Source of the DNA: Gammaproteobacteria bacterium
Lineage (GTDB): Bacteria; Pseudomonadota; Gammaproteobacteria; Pseudomonadales; Azotimanducaceae
Length of the DNA stretch: 10,781 nucleotides
Assembly (NCBI GenBank): GCA_027295975.1
Contig: JAPUJX010000220.1
Location: 1-10,781 of the forward strand
Reading direction: 5' to 3'
The notes below the pieces were generated by a model that searched no databases, was not told where the DNA came from, and saw only the letters and a list, made by a program, of their open reading frames with translations. The position numbers were made by a program, and so were the translations under genes. Of this stretch, positions 1,343 through 10,781 are shown in pieces (position 1 is the first letter of the stretch; the number at the start of each line of letters is the position of its first letter).

Positions 1343-2671
1343 TTGGATACATATACGGACAGGAAGCATGAGATCGAGGTCGAGCAAAACGACCTGACGG
1401 CCAGATATGCGGCTGTTCGCGCACAGAGTGAATCATTGTGTGACCCGCTTGCCGTCGAAGATTTCGGCGTGCAACCGATGAACGACGCGAGCCCGCCGAA
1501 GTGGCACCTCGCCCACACGAGCTGGTTTTTTGAAACCTTTTTGCTCAAACCCTTCCGGTCCGGTTACGCGGTTTTCCATCCTCGCTACGAGTTTCTATAC
1601 AACTCCTATTATATCGGCGTGGGTGATCCCTACCCGCGCCACAGGCGAGGTCTGCTCTCGCGGCCCACCGTTCGAGAAATATTCGCCTATCGCCGCCATG
1701 TGGACGAGGCGATGCAAAACCTCCTGGCTAGCAACGATGCAGAAGTGGCGGCCGTCATAGAGCTTGGACTCAACCATGAACAGCAGCATCAAGAACTGTT
1801 GCTGACCGATGTGAAGTACAACCTGGGCCATAACCCACTTTATCCTGCCTATCGTGAGGACCTCGCCGGGACGGAAATGGCGGCGGAAAACAGCAAACTC
1901 ACGTTCAGCACGTTTTCTGCCGCCAAGGTATGGATAGGTGCTGAAGGGGGGTTTTGTTTCGATAATGAACTGCCTCGTCACCAGGCGCTGGTCGGGGCGT
2001 TTGCCCTGGCGAACCGGGTAATAACCAATGGCGAGTACCTCGAGTTCATCGAAGATGGCGGATACGAGCGAGGGGCGCTTTGGCTGAGCGATGGCTGGAA
2101 TTGGCTGTTACGGCTCCGCTCGGCCGCGCAACAAAACCTGTTGTGCGCCCCGTTGTATTGGCTGAAAAGGGATGAACGGTGGCTGGAGTACCGGCTTGGA
2201 GGGCTTGCAGAACTCGAGATGGCCGCACCCGTGAGCCATGTGTGTTATTACGAAGCCGATGCGTATGCCCGCTGGGCGGGCTACCGATTGGCGACGGAGC
2301 AGGAATGGGAAACGGTGGCCCGGTTAACCGAACGAACGATCGGCGTAGTCCCTGACGGCAACTTTGTCGACAACAACCGCCTGCACCCATTGCCATCTCT
2401 GCCCGTGGGTGCGGGGACGAAAAAAACCTGCCGTCAGCTTTTTGGCGATGTCTGGGAATGGACGGCTAGCCCCTACACGCCGTACCCAGCCTATCGCCCG
2501 CCAACTGGTGCCCTGGGTGAATACAACGGTAAATTCATGAGTAATCAGCTGGTCTTGCGGGGTGGTTCCTGTGTAACCCCGCGGAACCATATGCGAGTGA
2601 GCTACCGGAATTTTTTCTATCCTCAGGACCGCTGGCAATTCAGCGGCATACGTCTGGCCTATGACCTCTAG
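1343..2671 (+). CDS. egtB: Ergothioneine biosynthesis protein EgtB (sulfoxide synthase), TTG start
   Basis: EgtB is an iron(II)-dependent enzyme that joins hercynine to a thiol (gamma-glutamylcysteine or cysteine) and oxidises it to the sulfoxide precursor of ergothioneine. The 442 residues show an N-terminal DinB-like helical domain (about 18-175) with WHLAH (His55/His58) and the iron motif HxxxHxE at His145, His149 and Glu151. The C-terminal formylglycine-generating-enzyme-like domain (about 190-442) contains FGDVWEWTAS and LRGGSCVTPRNHMR. The TTG at 1343 is chosen because an in-frame stop lies at 1328-1330, no in-frame ATG occurs before residue 46, and family-typical sequence (RYAAVRAQSESL) begins at residue 21. 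A run of six G at 1334-1339 precedes it by 3 bp and may be an unusual ribosome site. The 3' end overlaps egtD by 11 bp, so the two are probably translationally coupled. Thiol-donor preference cannot be read from the sequence by eye. Confidence 0.94.
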   Translation: MDTYTDRKHEIEVEQNDLTARYAAVRAQSESLCDPLAVEDFGVQPMNDASPPKWHLAHTSWFFETFLLKPFRSGYAVFHPRYEFLYNSYYIGVGDPYPRHRRGLLSRPTVREIFAYRRHVDEAMQNLLASNDAEVAAVIELGLNHEQQHQELLLTDVKYNLGHNPLYPAYREDLAGTEMAAENSKLTFSTFSAAKVWIGAEGGFCFDNELPRHQALVGAFALANRVITNGEYLEFIEDGGYERGALWLSDGWNWLLRLRSAAQQNLLCAPLYWLKRDERWLEYRLGGLAELEMAAPVSHVCYYEADAYARWAGYRLATEQEWETVARLTERTIGVVPDGNFVDNNRLHPLPSLPVGAGTKKTCRQLFGDVWEWTASPYTPYPAYRPPTGALGEYNGKFMSNQLVLRGGSCVTPRNHMRVSYRNFFYPQDRWQFSGIRLAYDL

Positions 2672-3635
2672 CGATACGACCCTCGGCGACTATCGGTTTT
2701 TCGATCTCAAGCCGGCCAGGCGAAATATGCATGAGGAGATCGTCGCCGGGTTACATGCGGCGGAAAAGCGCATAGCACCAAAGTACTTCTACGACGAGCG
2801 AGGTTCCCTGCTTTTCGAATCCATCACCGAACTTCCCGAGTATTATCTGACGCGTGCGGAGATGACCGTTTTCGACAGGTATGGCGAAGAATTAGGTGCC
2901 GTCATCGACGGCGGCACCTGTCTGGTGGAATATGGAGGTGGGTCCAGTCAGAAAATTCGCAAGCTGCTGGAAACCGGGCAGCCTGAAGCGTACATGCCGG
3001 TGGATATATCCAAGAATCACCTTCAGAACAACGCCAGGGCTCTGCATCGCGATTTTCCGGGGTTGAGCGTTTACCCCATCTGTGCGGATTTCACCCAGCC
3101 TTTCGAATTGCCGAACGTAGCTGACGGTTGCAATCGGGTTGGCTTTTTCCCTGGTTCGAGTATTGGTAACTTTGATCCGGCGGACGCGGTCACGTTTCTA
3201 TCGAACATCGCGGCGAATCTGGGTTCGGGAGCCCAATTGATCATCGGCGTCGATCAGAAAAAGGCGCCGGAAATCCTCCAGGCGGCTTACGACGATGCCC
3301 AAGGGGTCACCGCGGAATTCAATCTCAACCTGCTCAAACACCTCAACGAGGTGCTGGATGCCAATTTTGCGATTGACGAGTTCTCTCATGAAGCGGTTTA
3401 CAATGAGAATCTCGGCTGCGTGCAGATGTACTTACGCAGCCGCAAAGCACAGCAGGTCAGCGTGGGTACGGACCTTGTCGATTTCGCCAGGGATGAAACC
3501 ATCCACACCGAAAATTCCTACAAGTACCACCTCGCAGAATTCCAAACGCTTGTCCAGGCGGGTGGCTTTACCGTTAAATCCATCTGGAGAGACGAGCGCG
3601 ATTGGTTTGCCGTTGTGTTACTGGAGGTTAAGTAG
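2661..3635 (+). CDS. egtD: L-histidine N-alpha-methyltransferase EgtD
   Basis: EgtD uses three S-adenosylmethionine molecules to convert histidine to hercynine, the first step of ergothioneine synthesis in the cytoplasm. The 324-residue length matches the family. The SAM site is visible as YGGGSSQK (91-98), with Asp115 in VDIS and Asp143 in CADF. The histidine-binding residues known from the mycobacterial enzyme have counterparts here: the Tyr pair 61/62 in LPEYYLTR, Asn170 in GSSIGNF, Tyr210 in AAYDDAQGV, Met256, and the Glu284/Ser286 pair in HTENSYKY. The ATG at 2661 lies inside the end of egtB and has no clear ribosome site, which fits coupling to egtB translation. The 3' end runs 18 bp into the convergent thrB gene. 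No EgtA, EgtC or lyase gene is adjacent. The call is firm because fold motifs, substrate residues and partner gene agree. Confidence 0.95.
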   Translation: MTSSDTTLGDYRFFDLKPARRNMHEEIVAGLHAAEKRIAPKYFYDERGSLLFESITELPEYYLTRAEMTVFDRYGEELGAVIDGGTCLVEYGGGSSQKIRKLLETGQPEAYMPVDISKNHLQNNARALHRDFPGLSVYPICADFTQPFELPNVADGCNRVGFFPGSSIGNFDPADAVTFLSNIAANLGSGAQLIIGVDQKKAPEILQAAYDDAQGVTAEFNLNLLKHLNEVLDANFAIDEFSHEAVYNENLGCVQMYLRSRKAQQVSVGTDLVDFARDETIHTENSYKYHLAEFQTLVQAGGFTVKSIWRDERDWFAVVLLEVK

Positions 3636-4661: not shown

Positions 4662-5041
4662 TAGAACTCGATGATGACCCAACTGGGTAAAAGCGTCTCT
4701 GCACGCTCGAGGTTTCCGAACCCCGTCGTCCGGTCCCGCGGCACGAGATAATACGGTTTACCCCACTTCGGCACGACCCTCACCATGCGCAATTCACCAT
4801 TCTGACGGAACTCGTAAACGGTACGTGCCTCACCGACAATGATGGTGACATCAGGGCCTTTGAGGTTCTCGAGAGCCGATAGGGTTGCCGTATTTGCGAC
4901 GTTTGCAAACGGCAGGGTAAATACCACGCCCAACAGAAACGCTGTCAAGACGGGCAATTTCCCGGCACCCCGGCCGAGGGTACGGGTCGGGTTTGCATGC
5001 CGTTTTACCGGCTGTGATAGTGTCGATCTCGAGGGCCACAC
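4661..5041 (-). CDS. DUF2782 family small exported protein, function unknown
   Basis: The C-terminal 70 residues match the DUF2782 pattern: a Tyr-rich strand with an Asn-Gly turn (YEFRQNGELRMVRVVPK), then WGKPYYLVPRD, ending in LPSWVIIEF. A hydrophobic export segment, LPVLTAFLLGVVFTLPFA, precedes it and probably takes the protein to the periplasm. The biochemical role of the family is unknown to me. The start is uncertain. I give the GTG at 5041-5039, which leaves Arg/Lys residues before the hydrophobic stretch (126 residues in all). A TTG at 4957-4955 would give 98 residues, nearer the family's usual size, but with no basic residues before the hydrophobic core. The open frame runs back to an ATG at 5146 inside polA, which I consider too far. 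It lies upstream of thrB on the same strand, as I recall for Pseudomonas, and is probably co-transcribed with it. Confidence 0.8.
   Translation of the reverse strand: MWPSRSTLSQPVKRHANPTRTLGRGAGKLPVLTAFLLGVVFTLPFANVANTATLSALENLKGPDVTIIVGEARTVYEFRQNGELRMVRVVPKWGKPYYLVPRDRTTGFGNLERAETLLPSWVIIEF
4993..5021 (+). promoter_or_regulatory. Candidate sigma-70 promoter for polA
   Basis: An extended -10 element, TGTGATAGT, lies at 5013-5021. A weak -35, TTGCAT, lies at 4993-4998, with 17 bp between the hexamers. Transcription would begin near 5028, about 45 bases before the polA ATG. The -10 matches consensus at four of six bases plus the TG extension, and the -35 at three. The site would fall inside the N-terminal coding part of the divergent DUF2782 gene if that gene starts at 5041, but outside it if it starts at 4957. 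Confidence 0.4.
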
Positions 5042-5073: not shown

Positions 5074-7806
5074 ATGGTAACGAAAAAAATCCGAGAAACG
5101 GAGCCTGAAACAGAGGTTCCATTGCTGCTTGTCGATGGTTCGTCATACCTGTTTCGCGCTTATTTTGCGTTGCCGGAGCTCAAAACCACGGACGGTACCC
5201 CAACCGGCGCGATCCGGGGGGTTATCAGCATGTTGCGTAAGCTCGCAAAAGATTTTGCCGGCAGCCCCATCGCGGTCGTGTTCGACGCCCCTGGTAAAAC
5301 GTTTCGCGATGACCTGTTTGCCCAGTACAAAGCGAATCGACCGCCAATGCCCAACGATCTGCGTGAGCAGATCCAGCCCATTCACGACATCATTCGAGCC
5401 ATGGGTCTGCCGTTGCTCGCGGTTTCAGGCGTTGAGGCGGACGACGTCATTGGTACCCTCGCCACCGAAGCCACCAGAACGAAACGACGAACCATCATCT
5501 CGACGGGCGACAAGGACATGGCGCAACTCGTTTCGGATGATGTGACGCTCGTGAACACAATGAACGACACAACGATGGATCGTGAGGGGGTGGTTGCGAA
5601 GTTCGGTGTCGTGCCTGAGTTGATCATCGACTACCTGGCCCTGATGGGGGACTCCGCGGACAACATCCCCGGGGTACCGAAGGTAGGACCAAAAACCGCC
5701 GCTAAATGGCTCAACGAATACGGTAGCCTCGATGAAGTAATCGCCAACGCCGGGCTGATAAAAGGTAAGGTCGGAGAGAATCTACGCGCAACGCTGGATC
5801 AGCTACCGCTGTCACGCGAACTCACCACAATTAGATGTGATGTGCCGTTGGAGGTCGGCATCGAGGATCTCGAGACGCCACCGCCGGATGTTGGCGAATT
5901 GAAAAACCTGTATACCAGGTTCGAATTCAAAACCTGGATGGAGGAGGTGGAAGGATCGGGCGAGGGTGCGGGCGAGACGGGGAAAACCACCGTCGCCGAG
6001 CGTAACTATCACTGCGTGGACAATAGTGCCGATCTTGCCAAATGGGTGCGGCGTCTGGCATCCGCCGAGTTGATTGCCCTCGATACGAAAACGACCAGCA
6101 ACGATTACATGAACGCCGAACTCGTCGGGTTTTCATTTTGCGCAAAGCCCGGGGAGGCATTTTATGTGCCGGTGGGGCACAACTATGTCGGCGCGCCTGC
6201 CCAGCTTACGGCGATTGAGGTACTCGAGGCGCTCAAGGGGCTCCTCGAGGATCCCCGTGTCGTCAAGGTTGGGCAGAACATCAAATACGATATGAGCGTG
6301 CTGGCGTTATATGGCATCGAACTCAAAGGGATTGGCTACGACACGATGCTGGAATCCTACGTGTTGAACAGCGTCGGTAGTCGCCACGACACCGAGGCGC
6401 TCGCCGAGAAGTACCTCGATCAGAAAACGACACGTTATGAGTCCATTGCCGGGAAAGGCGCCAAACAACTGACCTTCAACGAGATTCCAGTCGACCAGGC
6501 CGCGGAATTCGCGGCGGAACAAGCGGATCTCACGCTCCAGTTGCATCAGAAATTGTGGTCCGAACTCGCCAGGGAGAAAAACCTCGTTTCGGTTTTTGAG
6601 GACATCGAGCTGCCACTGGTGGCCGTGCTGTCGCGCATGGAGAGACAGGGAACTCTGGTGGATGGCGGGTTGCTCGAGGCGCAGAGCCGACAGCTCGATG
6701 GCCGGATGCGCGAGCTGATAAGGCAGGCGTGGACCCTCGCGGGTGAGGAATTCAACCTGGACTCCACCAAACAACTTCAATCGATCCTCTACGAGAAGCT
6801 CGAACTACCGGTACTCAAGAAGACGCCCAAAGGCAAACCTTCCACGGCCGAACCGGTGTTGCAGGATCTGGCGGTAGATTTCGAGCTGCCGCGCACCATT
6901 ATCGAATACCGCAGCCTCGCAAAACTCAAATCCACTTATACCGACAAGTTGCCGTTGGAGATCAACCGGAAAACGGGACGGATCCATACATCCTATCGAC
7001 AGGCGGTTGCGGCTACCGGTCGGTTGTCCTCCTCGGATCCGAACCTGCAGAACATTCCGATCCGCTCCGAAGAGGGACGGCGAATCCGCCAGGCGTTCGT
7101 CGCGCCATCGGGGGACAAGCTGGTGGCCGCGGATTATTCGCAAATCGAGCTGCGAATCATGGCCCACCTCTCGGACGACGCCGGGTTACTCGCGGCGTTC
7201 GCGGCCGGAGTGGACATCCATAAGGCGACCGCCGCGGAGGTTTTCGGTTGCTCCCTTGACGAGGTGTCGAGCGAGCAACGCAGGAACGCCAAGGCGATTA
7301 ATTTCGGGTTGATTTACGGTATGTCGGCATTCGGTCTTGGCCGCCAACTTCACATATCCCGGGCGGTAGCGCAGGGGTACATAGATCGTTACTTCGAGCG
7401 CTATCCCGGGGTCCGTACCTACATGGAGGCAACCCGCGCGATCGCTCACGATCAGGGTTATGTGGAGACGGTGTTCGGGAGAAGGTTGTATCTTCCGGAG
7501 ATCAACGCCCGTCACATGCAACGACGTCAGGCGGCGGAGCGCGCCGCCATCAATGCGCCGATGCAGGGTACGGCGGCGGACGTGATCAAACGCGCGATGC
7601 TGGCCGTGGACGCCTGGCTGACCGAGAGTTCAATAAATGCCCGCATGATCATGCAGGTTCACGACGAACTCGTGTTCGAGGTGGCGGAGGATCAGGTGGC
7701 CGAATTGTCCACCACGGTCGCCAGCCTCATGGAAGGGGCGGCCGAACTGACCGTACCCCTCACCGTGGATGTGGGCGTCGGTGATAACTGGGACGAAGCC
7801 CACTAG
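5074..7806 (+). CDS. polA: DNA polymerase I, with a degenerate 3'-5' proofreading site
   Basis: PolA removes RNA primers and fills gaps in replication and excision repair. This 910-residue protein (E. coli: 928) has all three domains. The 5' nuclease (about 15-290) keeps its acidic residues: Asp21, Asp71, Glu121, Asp123/124, Asp146, Asp148, Asp193 and Asp196. A Gly/Glu-rich linker (291-305) follows. The polymerase (about 510-910) keeps motif A Asp687 in DYSQIELR, Lys740, Phe744 and Tyr748 in motif B, and His863-Asp864-Glu865 in motif C. The 3'-5' exonuclease domain (about 310-500) is full length. However, Lys339 replaces E. coli Glu357, Gln483 replaces Asp501, and Phe479 replaces Tyr497. Only Asp337 and Asp406 survive. 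Proofreading is therefore probably lost. The ATG at 5074 is preferred over one at 4993 because AAGGA lies at 5057-5061 and family sequence begins soon after. The stop is shared with convergent engB in a 4-bp CTAG overlap. Confidence 0.97.
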   Translation: MVTKKIRETEPETEVPLLLVDGSSYLFRAYFALPELKTTDGTPTGAIRGVISMLRKLAKDFAGSPIAVVFDAPGKTFRDDLFAQYKANRPPMPNDLREQIQPIHDIIRAMGLPLLAVSGVEADDVIGTLATEATRTKRRTIISTGDKDMAQLVSDDVTLVNTMNDTTMDREGVVAKFGVVPELIIDYLALMGDSADNIPGVPKVGPKTAAKWLNEYGSLDEVIANAGLIKGKVGENLRATLDQLPLSRELTTIRCDVPLEVGIEDLETPPPDVGELKNLYTRFEFKTWMEEVEGSGEGAGETGKTTVAERNYHCVDNSADLAKWVRRLASAELIALDTKTTSNDYMNAELVGFSFCAKPGEAFYVPVGHNYVGAPAQLTAIEVLEALKGLLEDPRVVKVGQNIKYDMSVLALYGIELKGIGYDTMLESYVLNSVGSRHDTEALAEKYLDQKTTRYESIAGKGAKQLTFNEIPVDQAAEFAAEQADLTLQLHQKLWSELAREKNLVSVFEDIELPLVAVLSRMERQGTLVDGGLLEAQSRQLDGRMRELIRQAWTLAGEEFNLDSTKQLQSILYEKLELPVLKKTPKGKPSTAEPVLQDLAVDFELPRTIIEYRSLAKLKSTYTDKLPLEINRKTGRIHTSYRQAVAATGRLSSSDPNLQNIPIRSEEGRRIRQAFVAPSGDKLVAADYSQIELRIMAHLSDDAGLLAAFAAGVDIHKATAAEVFGCSLDEVSSEQRRNAKAINFGLIYGMSAFGLGRQLHISRAVAQGYIDRYFERYPGVRTYMEATRAIAHDQGYVETVFGRRLYLPEINARHMQRRQAAERAAINAPMQGTAADVIKRAMLAVDAWLTESSINARMIMQVHDELVFEVAEDQVAELSTTVASLMEGAAELTVPLTVDVGVGDNWDEAH

Positions 7807-9935: not shown

Positions 9936-10781
9936 ATGCCAGATAGTCCACAATTCAAAACTCCCGGACGGGCTAAACTCAGAGCAAGATCCAGGGAACC
10001 ACTTGCCATGCCCGCTTGGTCGCGTAGGGCGGATGGCCGCTGCAAAGCGGTGTCAGCCGCTGTCAACATTCATTCGATACACCAGGAGCGGCAAAACGTC
10101 CTGGAACCCCTGCGGTTTCTGACGTTTAACATCCAGGTTGGCATCAAGACCACGGGTTATGGTCAGTACTTCACCAAAGGCTGGAAACACGTGCTTCCCC
10201 ATGGCGGCCACAACCAGAATTTGCGTCGCATCGCGGATCTGGTTGCCGACTACGACCTGGTTGCGTTACAGGAAATCGACGGAGGTAGCATTCGCAGCGG
10301 TTTCGTCAATCAGGTTGAATATATCGCCGATCGTGCCCAGTTTCCGTATTGGTACACACAATTGAACCGCGATCTTGGGGTTTTTGCCCAGCACGGGAAT
10401 GGCCTGCTGTCCAGAATCGCGCCGATCGAGATGGAAGACCACAAGTTACCCGGCGCTATTCCGGGCCGGGGGGCTATTGTGGTCCGTCTACCCTGGGCGG
10501 GCGAACGGCTGCTGTTGGTGCTTTTGCACCTCTCCCTGGGAGACCGCTCGCGGCATATGCAGTTGGAGTATGTCCGTGGGCTGATTCAAAATGACGAGTA
10601 CGTGGTTGTCATGGGCGACATGAACAGTCACCTCTCGGAGCTGTTGTTCAACTCGCCGCTTGCTGACACCAATTTGATGCCAGCCGAGCAGGTTGATCCT
10701 ACTTATCCCGCCTGGCGCCCTGACCTGGCGCTGGATCATGTGCTCGTATCACCGGGGCTCAACATTCGCGAATACGAAGTG
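9936..10781 (+). CDS. Endonuclease/exonuclease/phosphatase (EEP) family protein, 3'-truncated
   Basis: The frame is open to the right edge, with 282 residues visible. It belongs to the Mg-dependent EEP superfamily, whose members cleave phosphodiester or phosphomonoester bonds. The actual substrate is unknown. Visible motifs in order are the first Asn in LTFNIQVG (Asn65), the metal-binding Glu113 in ALQEIDGGS, NGLLSR, LHLSLGDRSR, the catalytic MGDMNSH (Asp228, Asn230) and LDHVLVSPG (Asp267-His268). The final SDHLP-type motif should lie just past the edge. No signal peptide is apparent. The ATG at 9936 is 10 bp after dsbA, favouring one transcript. An ATG at 10008, with AGGGA about 10 bp upstream, is a real alternative, because residues 1-55 look basic and poorly conserved. 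An equivalent gene follows dsbA in Pseudomonas as I recall it. Confidence 0.88.
   Translation, partial: MPDSPQFKTPGRAKLRARSREPLAMPAWSRRADGRCKAVSAAVNIHSIHQERQNVLEPLRFLTFNIQVGIKTTGYGQYFTKGWKHVLPHGGHNQNLRRIADLVADYDLVALQEIDGGSIRSGFVNQVEYIADRAQFPYWYTQLNRDLGVFAQHGNGLLSRIAPIEMEDHKLPGAIPGRGAIVVRLPWAGERLLLVLLHLSLGDRSRHMQLEYVRGLIQNDEYVVVMGDMNSHLSELLFNSPLADTNLMPAEQVDPTYPAWRPDLALDHVLVSPGLNIREYEV

Follow-up and report, generated by a model that had tools for sequence, protein, structure and literature searches.

The question raised by this locus is whether its DNA polymerase I (Pol I, PolA) can still proofread. The polA gene lies in a 10,781-nucleotide stretch (hereafter the window, meaning the whole stretch that was analysed) from a gammaproteobacterium of the family Azotimanducaceae, order Pseudomonadales (assembly GCA_027295975.1, contig JAPUJX010000220.1). 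Taq, Bst and mycobacterial enzymes have lost the proofreading site, and the initial annotation had proposed the same for the window. As judged from sequence and predicted fold, the window PolA is very likely a proofreading-dead, otherwise intact Pol I. The features on which this reading depends are as follows:

5074..7806, + strand: polA, DNA polymerase I, 910 amino acids; ATG start agreeing with the proteins of the genus, five Pfam families
6007..6567, + strand: vestigial 3′-5′ exonuclease (exo; DEDDy) domain, residues 312-498; PF01612, 99.4 bits, above cut-off
6082..6084, + strand: Asp337 (GAT), aligned to E. coli Asp355, kept
6088..6090, + strand: Lys339 (AAA), aligned to E. coli Glu357, lost
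6289..6291, + strand: Asp406 (GAT), aligned to E. coli Asp424, kept
6508..6510, + strand: Phe479 (TTC), aligned to E. coli Tyr497, lost
6520..6522, + strand: Gln483 (CAA), aligned to E. coli Asp501, lost

Residues 310-910 were aligned to the E. coli Klenow fragment by HMMER with zero gaps, and the predicted model of these residues superposed on residues 328-928 of 1kfd in the structural alignment. Because both alignments give it, the offset of 18 between the two numberings is correct. At positions 355/357/424/497/501 (E. coli numbering, used hereafter for the exo site), the window reads D, K, D, F, Q, leaving the active DEDDy set (D, E, D, Y, D) incomplete, with two of the four metal carboxylates plus the tyrosine gone. 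The residue losses and the offset had been put forward by the initial annotation, and both are borne out by the three codons and the gap-free Klenow alignment with Asp355 and Asp424 kept. The predicted model (predicted local distance difference test score, 85.2) had Klenow structures as its best matches, so that the exo fold is retained by prediction and its catalytic residues are lost, the combination that marks a proofreading-dead Pol I of the Helicobacter pylori type. The earlier proposal of a dead site in a retained domain therefore agrees with both sequence and predicted fold, and a single PolA match was found across the window's genome, a fragmented assembly of 3.7 Mb that is 77% complete.

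The remainder of the protein resembles a canonical Pol I:

5122..5889, + strand: 5′-3′ nuclease (flap endonuclease-like, FEN-like) domain, residues 17-272; PF02739 at 17-178, PF01367 at 180-272
6673..7797, + strand: polymerase domain, residues 534-908; PF00476, catalytic residues retained

PF02739, PF01367, PF01612, PF22619 and PF00476 all matched above their cut-offs on one chain and in the expected PolA1 order, uniting the 5′ nuclease, DnaQ-like exonuclease and family A polymerase domains. Asp21, Asp71, Asp123, Asp124, Asp146, Asp148 and Asp193, which we take to be the metal ligands of the 5′ nuclease, showed no variation across 30 aligned PolA proteins. The polymerase catalytic set is present as Asp687, Glu692, Arg736, Lys740, Tyr748, Gln831, His863, Asp864 and Glu865 (E. 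coli D705, E710, R754, K758, Y766, Q849, H881, D882 and E883). The mechanical open reading frame (ORF) opens earlier, at 4993, and the MV.KK start is common to the window PolA and the four genus proteins compared at this end.

The same loss was observed across the genus. Two further genus genomes lack the site, reading AKDFE and VKDFA at the five positions. Among the best 120 of 7975 matches in a protein search, the window's own included, 17 more genus-level proteins read AKDFE (15), VKDFA (1) or IKDFA (1), and the remaining 102 were intact. Lys357 and Phe497 are common to the window, both other genus genomes and the 17 close proteins and, by parsimony, would have been ancestral to the sampled members of the genus. 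The position of Asp501 is occupied by Gln, Glu or Ala in the genus, whereas Asp355 is still present in the window and replaced in its relatives (A, V, I).

The family was then surveyed in 206 genomes (G labels denote genomes, g labels genera and L labels loci). An exo-domain match was found in 188, and PolA stretches were obtained for 189, the extra one (G154, from a longer query) being without the exo part. All five positions were readable in 187 genomes, of which 121 were intact and 66 were not (hereafter dead), the latter spread over 13 of the 36 family genera. The dead enzymes have lost four carboxylates in 38 cases, three in 25, two in 2 (the window and G089) and one in 1 (G006); G164, with an unread letter at 501 and both Asp355 and Asp424 lost, was counted among the losses of three. 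Mild decay is rare, and the window is among the three mildest of the 66. Asp501 was retained in none of the 65 dead family sequences readable there.

The number of losses was estimated on trees of the polymerase domain alone. State changes numbered 12 on 205 rows (FastTree) and 13 on 106 rows (IQ-TREE, quick), both trees including G041 and G042 from other families of the order, and 9 on 73 rows picked from the 205 (careful tree). With an order member as the root and losses treated as irreversible, the 73 rows gave 9 losses in 870 of 1000 bootstrap trees, 10 in 129 and 11 in 1. The nine losses fall on g1 (the window's genus), g4, g5, G061 of g33, G089 of g2, g15, g20, g28, and g7, g8, g32 and g58 jointly. 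Nine is a floor, because long or distant dead rows were left out (29 of 67 dead rows are covered, and the 38 outside include G094 of g57, G078, G067, G041 and G042) and because the joining of g8 to g7, g32 and g58 may be caused by long-branch attraction. These counts give at least nine independent losses within the window's family. As a separate observation, the PolA exo domain of G090, also of g2 (L171, G090:C204:74259-76026), is split over two matches, one of which contains a stop, through either a frameshift or an assembly error.

Beyond the family, the exo site was intact in 80 of 80 named gammaproteobacterial loci, a selection biased to similar sequences. An intact exo-III DNA motif, which is present in 137 of 139 intact sequences, 0 of 67 dead ones and 76 of the 80 named intact loci, turned up in 225 of 281 genomes, a set made up of the window's genome and others of the class at ≥95% completeness. 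A missing motif is no proof of loss, because motif-less genomes include those with an intact PolA. Further examination of 49 of the 56 motif-less genomes, plus 6 sisters with the motif, gave 51 PolA loci: 26 intact (the 6 sisters included), 19 not intact and 6 unreadable, with two of the 19 (G297 and G310) lacking a single residue. Loss of the proofreading site thus recurs in other families of the class too. In two loci of other class families, L334 (G445) and L342 (G452), convergent Glu357 to Lys and Asp501 to Glu replacements were noticed (HKDCE and DKAFE), as in the AKDFE of the window's genus. In genus g81, DKDYG in G365 (L360) stands beside DEDYD in G248 (L354), apparently a recent further loss, in a small genome.

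These surveys qualify two earlier claims. That the site is usually intact in this lineage holds for the Gammaproteobacteria as a whole, by the named loci and the motif count, but is only partly right, since 66 of 187 are not intact in the window's own family. Of a loss called recent or specific, specificity is contradicted by its being common to the genus members seen, while the window does belong to the least decayed examples. Mapping the carboxylates on a tree of relatives, as had been proposed, gave a genus-wide loss and the repeated losses above, a scale beyond that annotation.

Evolution of the exo domain after the loss was assessed by substitution rates within genera and by column conservation in 139 intact sequences (121 from the family, 18 from the order) and 68 dead ones (66 and 2, respectively). 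The number of nonsynonymous substitutions per site (dN) was preferred over the synonymous one (dS), because synonymous sites are near saturation in many pairs. With pairs at a polymerase distance ≤2% dropped and some genera represented by a single pair, the within-genus median dN(exo)/dN(pol) was 1.74-2.94 in 7 of 7 dead genera vs. 0.97-1.48 in 15 of 15 intact genera, without overlap. In g1, dN/dS was about 0.10-0.14 for the exo domain vs. 0.06-0.08 for the polymerase domain. Once dead, an exo domain therefore changes at about double the rate of its polymerase domain, although purifying selection still acts on it; the constraint is relaxed but persists. Consistently, of the 53 exo columns ≥95% conserved in the intact set, 11 remain ≥90% conserved in the dead set, compared with 140 of 177 polymerase-domain columns by the same criteria, and catalytic polymerase residues are retained in the dead enzymes. 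Lys422, one of the 11 retained exo columns, is present in all 65 dead family sequences that can be read at its position, and Gly370, Tyr382, Pro384, Asp441, Leu444, Ser446, Tyr447, His456, Gly478 and Gly480 are kept in ≥90% of the 68.

Two residues outside the five positions were found to be lost along with the site:

6391..6393, + strand: Thr440 (ACC), aligned to E. coli Met458, lost with the site in 13 of 13 lineages
6997..6999, + strand: Arg642 (polymerase domain), aligned to E. coli His660, a residue that most dead family lineages have replaced

For this comparison the dead sequences were divided into 13 lineages, of which 11 belong to the family and the other two are G041 and G042. Met458, like Asp501, is gone from every member in 13 of 13 lineages (12 of 12 if g8 is joined to g7, g32 and g58). 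Each of the five lineages with the least decay has lost only 5-8 of the 53 columns (for g1, those lost in all three members), Met458 always among them; the Met458 position is Leu in 6 of the 139 intact rows. Of the polymerase-domain columns with ≥90% conservation among intact rows, His660 was the single outlier, replaced in the majority of members in 10 of 13 dead lineages (9 of 12 with g8 joined), the next column reaching 5. In 200 control draws of 13 from 23 intact genera the count never rose above 3, a control biased low because intact genera also define the conserved columns. Within the family, 120 intact sequences are readable at this position, of which 114 retain His660 and 6 have Gln; of the 66 dead ones, 10 retain it, G002, G167 and five g32 members among them. 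The independent-pair sign test on His660 was borderline (6 supported pairs, about 4.5 the same way and 0 the other; the median p was 0.06 with FastTree and 0.125 with the careful tree), and that on Met458 slightly better.

Outside the family, 45 loci were compared, mostly selected for missing the common exo-III motif, so that the intact ones among them are unusual. Met458 was retained in 1 of 19 dead vs. 13 of 26 intact loci (p 0.0025, uncorrected for relatedness), and the sole dead locus with it, G310, has lost only Tyr497. In the same 45 loci, no association was seen for His660, retained in 10 of 19 dead vs. 14 of 26 intact (p 1.0). An earlier count of loci without His660 (11 of 21 dead vs. 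13 of 43 intact, p 0.10) was discarded, as it contained order members, including the dead G041 and G042 of the discovery set; the recount without them gave 9 of 19 vs. 12 of 26. His660 is present in 78 of the 80 named intact loci. Met458 is the stronger lead, and His660 is lineage-specific at best.

The recurrent losses might serve as a natural mutational scan, in which Met458, and in this order His660, are kept mainly for editing and freed once the site dies. The two residues might hold the frayed primer end in, or en route to, the exonuclease site. We regard this as a tentative possibility, its odds lowered because His660 fails to replicate outside the family. If true, part of the proofreading apparatus would lie in the polymerase domain, and editing competence could be tested from sequence; for site-directed changes in E. 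coli Klenow, Met458 and, more tentatively, His660 offer clear-cut predictions.

Other fidelity and translesion genes were also inspected. DnaQ matches were found in 3 of 3 genus genomes, the window's above the curated cut-off, and DEDDh residues, read by what we take to be the motif letters, were visible by eye in the translations. The window's genome has partial matches to mutS1 (284 of 840 profile positions) and to a DinB-type polymerase, and no PF00136 (Pol II) match was found in this 77% complete assembly. The raised error rate or translesion role that the initial annotation had suggested gained no support from these results, and the genome still carries a DnaQ gene. In 57 picked genomes, a general loss of mismatch repair in dead lineages was not seen (24 of the 27 dead and 29 of the 30 intact genomes have a mutS1 match), and Pol II as compensation was suggestive only (PF00136 in 24 of 27 dead vs. 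21 of 30 intact); among these genomes, neither accounts for the loss pattern. E. coli-like DinB (type A; E ≤1e-95 to the query, plus one partial match in G199) was found in 1 of 65 dead vs. 69 of 118 intact family rows, and at ≥90% completeness in 1 of 51 vs. 56 of 86.

Two distinct DinB types were noticed in the family, the E. coli-like one of about 360 amino acids and another of about 415 or more; that the second might be UmuC was ruled out, its translations being DinB-like by eye. In g8, Y-family matches were weak only (14 of 18 genomes) or absent (4), and none was found in 6 of 7 g32 genomes.

In the window, polA is flanked by DUF2782 and a small GTPase gene, an order that is presumably the usual one in Pseudomonas. 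Elsewhere, an FGE-sulfatase/DinB_2 protein followed by a Methyltransf_33 protein at 1343-3635 show the arrangement of the ergothioneine genes egtB and egtD, and an ORF at 9936-10781, open at the contig end, resembles by eye an endonuclease/exonuclease/phosphatase family protein.

The best explanation of the whole, which we hold with considerable confidence, is that the 3′-5′ site of a single PolA was lost before the sampled members of the genus diverged, in a recurrent and possibly near-neutral kind of loss, and that the exo domain has been kept as a structural scaffold, with purifying selection on it relaxed. The 5′ nuclease would still remove primers and the polymerase would still fill short gaps, while a mismatched 3′ end would no longer be edited in place but be extended, or left to mismatch repair. 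Losing proofreading would cost little, since the patches made by Pol I are short and the replicase retains its own proofreader. We infer the absence of exonuclease activity, the near-neutrality and the cellular consequence. Two observations weigh against this explanation: Asp355 and Asp424 are retained, so that the sequence leaves room for trace activity, and the clustered losses and the DinB association would also fit an adaptive account.

In such an account, a non-editing Pol I would extend mismatched or lesion-bearing primers better and take over translesion synthesis where E. coli-like DinB was lost. The scarcity of type A DinB in dead rows fits it, as does H. pylori, which is without translesion polymerases and has an exo-dead Pol I that bypasses lesions and extends mismatches (PMC3121766). 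However, the association is not significant in phylogenetically independent pairs (5 supported; about 1.8 opposite, 0 the same way), type A is also missing from 49 of 118 intact rows, and 33 of 65 dead rows, among them those of the window's genus, have another DinB-type polymerase, so we consider adaptive loss unlikely. Exchange of the catalytic residues for a different or new activity of the exo domain, such as single-strand or partner binding, is less probable again. It would explain the purifying selection in the genus and the persistence of Lys422 and the ten further residues, but intact enzymes share these residues, which a scaffold would predict, and the relative rate of the exo domain is raised in all seven dead genera that were compared. 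Moreover, in a simple pattern scan the beta-clamp motif was not enriched in the exo domain (1 of 68 dead, 2 of 139 intact), unlike in actinobacterial PolA2; the lone dead match reads QLDIF, a string absent from the window PolA.

Slow residual editing, with the two remaining carboxylates and another acidic side chain holding the metal, has a small probability. Asp337 and Asp406 are in place, and Glu482 and Asp485 flank the lost Asp501 position, but these two are ordinary neighbours also found in intact enzymes, and the genus relatives have lost Asp355 too, which is unexpected under selection for trace activity. Least credible, and barely so, is a sequencing or assembly error or a decaying second polA copy, the fragmented, 77% complete assembly leaving room for such a copy outside it. 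Sequencing error, the escape that the initial annotation had allowed for, is rejected because other assemblies share Lys357 and Phe497; in addition, the ORF is without stops, one PolA match was found in the genome, and the gene sits between DUF2782 and the small GTPase gene.

A textbook function of E. coli Pol I appears to have been lost at least nine times in one gammaproteobacterial family with intact relatives close by. This makes testable the long-standing question of the natural worth of Pol I editing, and the fate of fidelity, lesion bypass and the domain itself after the loss. The window enzyme may stand near the start of decay, because it is one of three among 66 with only one or two of the four carboxylates lost.

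A proofreading-dead Pol I is, as a kind, already known. About half of bacterial Pol I orthologues (PolA1) have a substituted DEDDy site, distributed largely by phylum (PMC12926913; Nucleic Acids Res. 2026 gkag133). Purified H. pylori Pol I, in which D355, D424 and D501 are missing, does not proofread; work cited in the same paper describes E. coli without Pol I editing as a mutator with lagging-strand bias (PMC3121766). The available part of PMC11253446 holds nothing on Pol I editing. In a literature search with most subscription journals outside its coverage, no report was found of repeated loss within one gammaproteobacterial family or of Met458 and His660 as companions of the proofreading site, which is weak evidence of novelty. 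No paper was found with both His660 and Klenow, and the one with H660, Klenow and DNA polymerase I concerns prostate cancer and is, to judge by its title, unrelated. None of the 8 best-ranked of 720 matches combined Met458, the Klenow fragment and exonuclease.

Compared with E. coli Klenow (1dpi, 1kfs, 1kfd), the window PolA is gap-free over 310-910 with 56-62% identity in structural alignments and has the same domains and polymerase catalytic residues, but carries Lys, Phe and Gln for Glu357, Tyr497 and Asp501, Thr for Met458 and Arg for His660. H. pylori Pol I (HP1470) is likewise full-length, with the predicted exo fold kept and proofreading carboxylates lost (PMC3121766); its loss of editing was measured, whereas the window keeps D355 and D424 and its loss is read from sequence only. 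Furthermore, the window's genome has its partial DinB-type match, unlike H. pylori. The exo-inactive PolA1 enzymes of gkag133 share with it a substituted DEDDy site in an otherwise canonical Pol I (PMC12926913), while here the loss recurs at genus and species level in one gammaproteobacterial family. The actinobacterial PolA2 (APEX) also has an inactive 3′-5′ exonuclease domain, but it is without the 5′ nuclease, and its exo domain carries a motif for clamp binding (PMC12926913), and the window PolA is the opposite on both counts.
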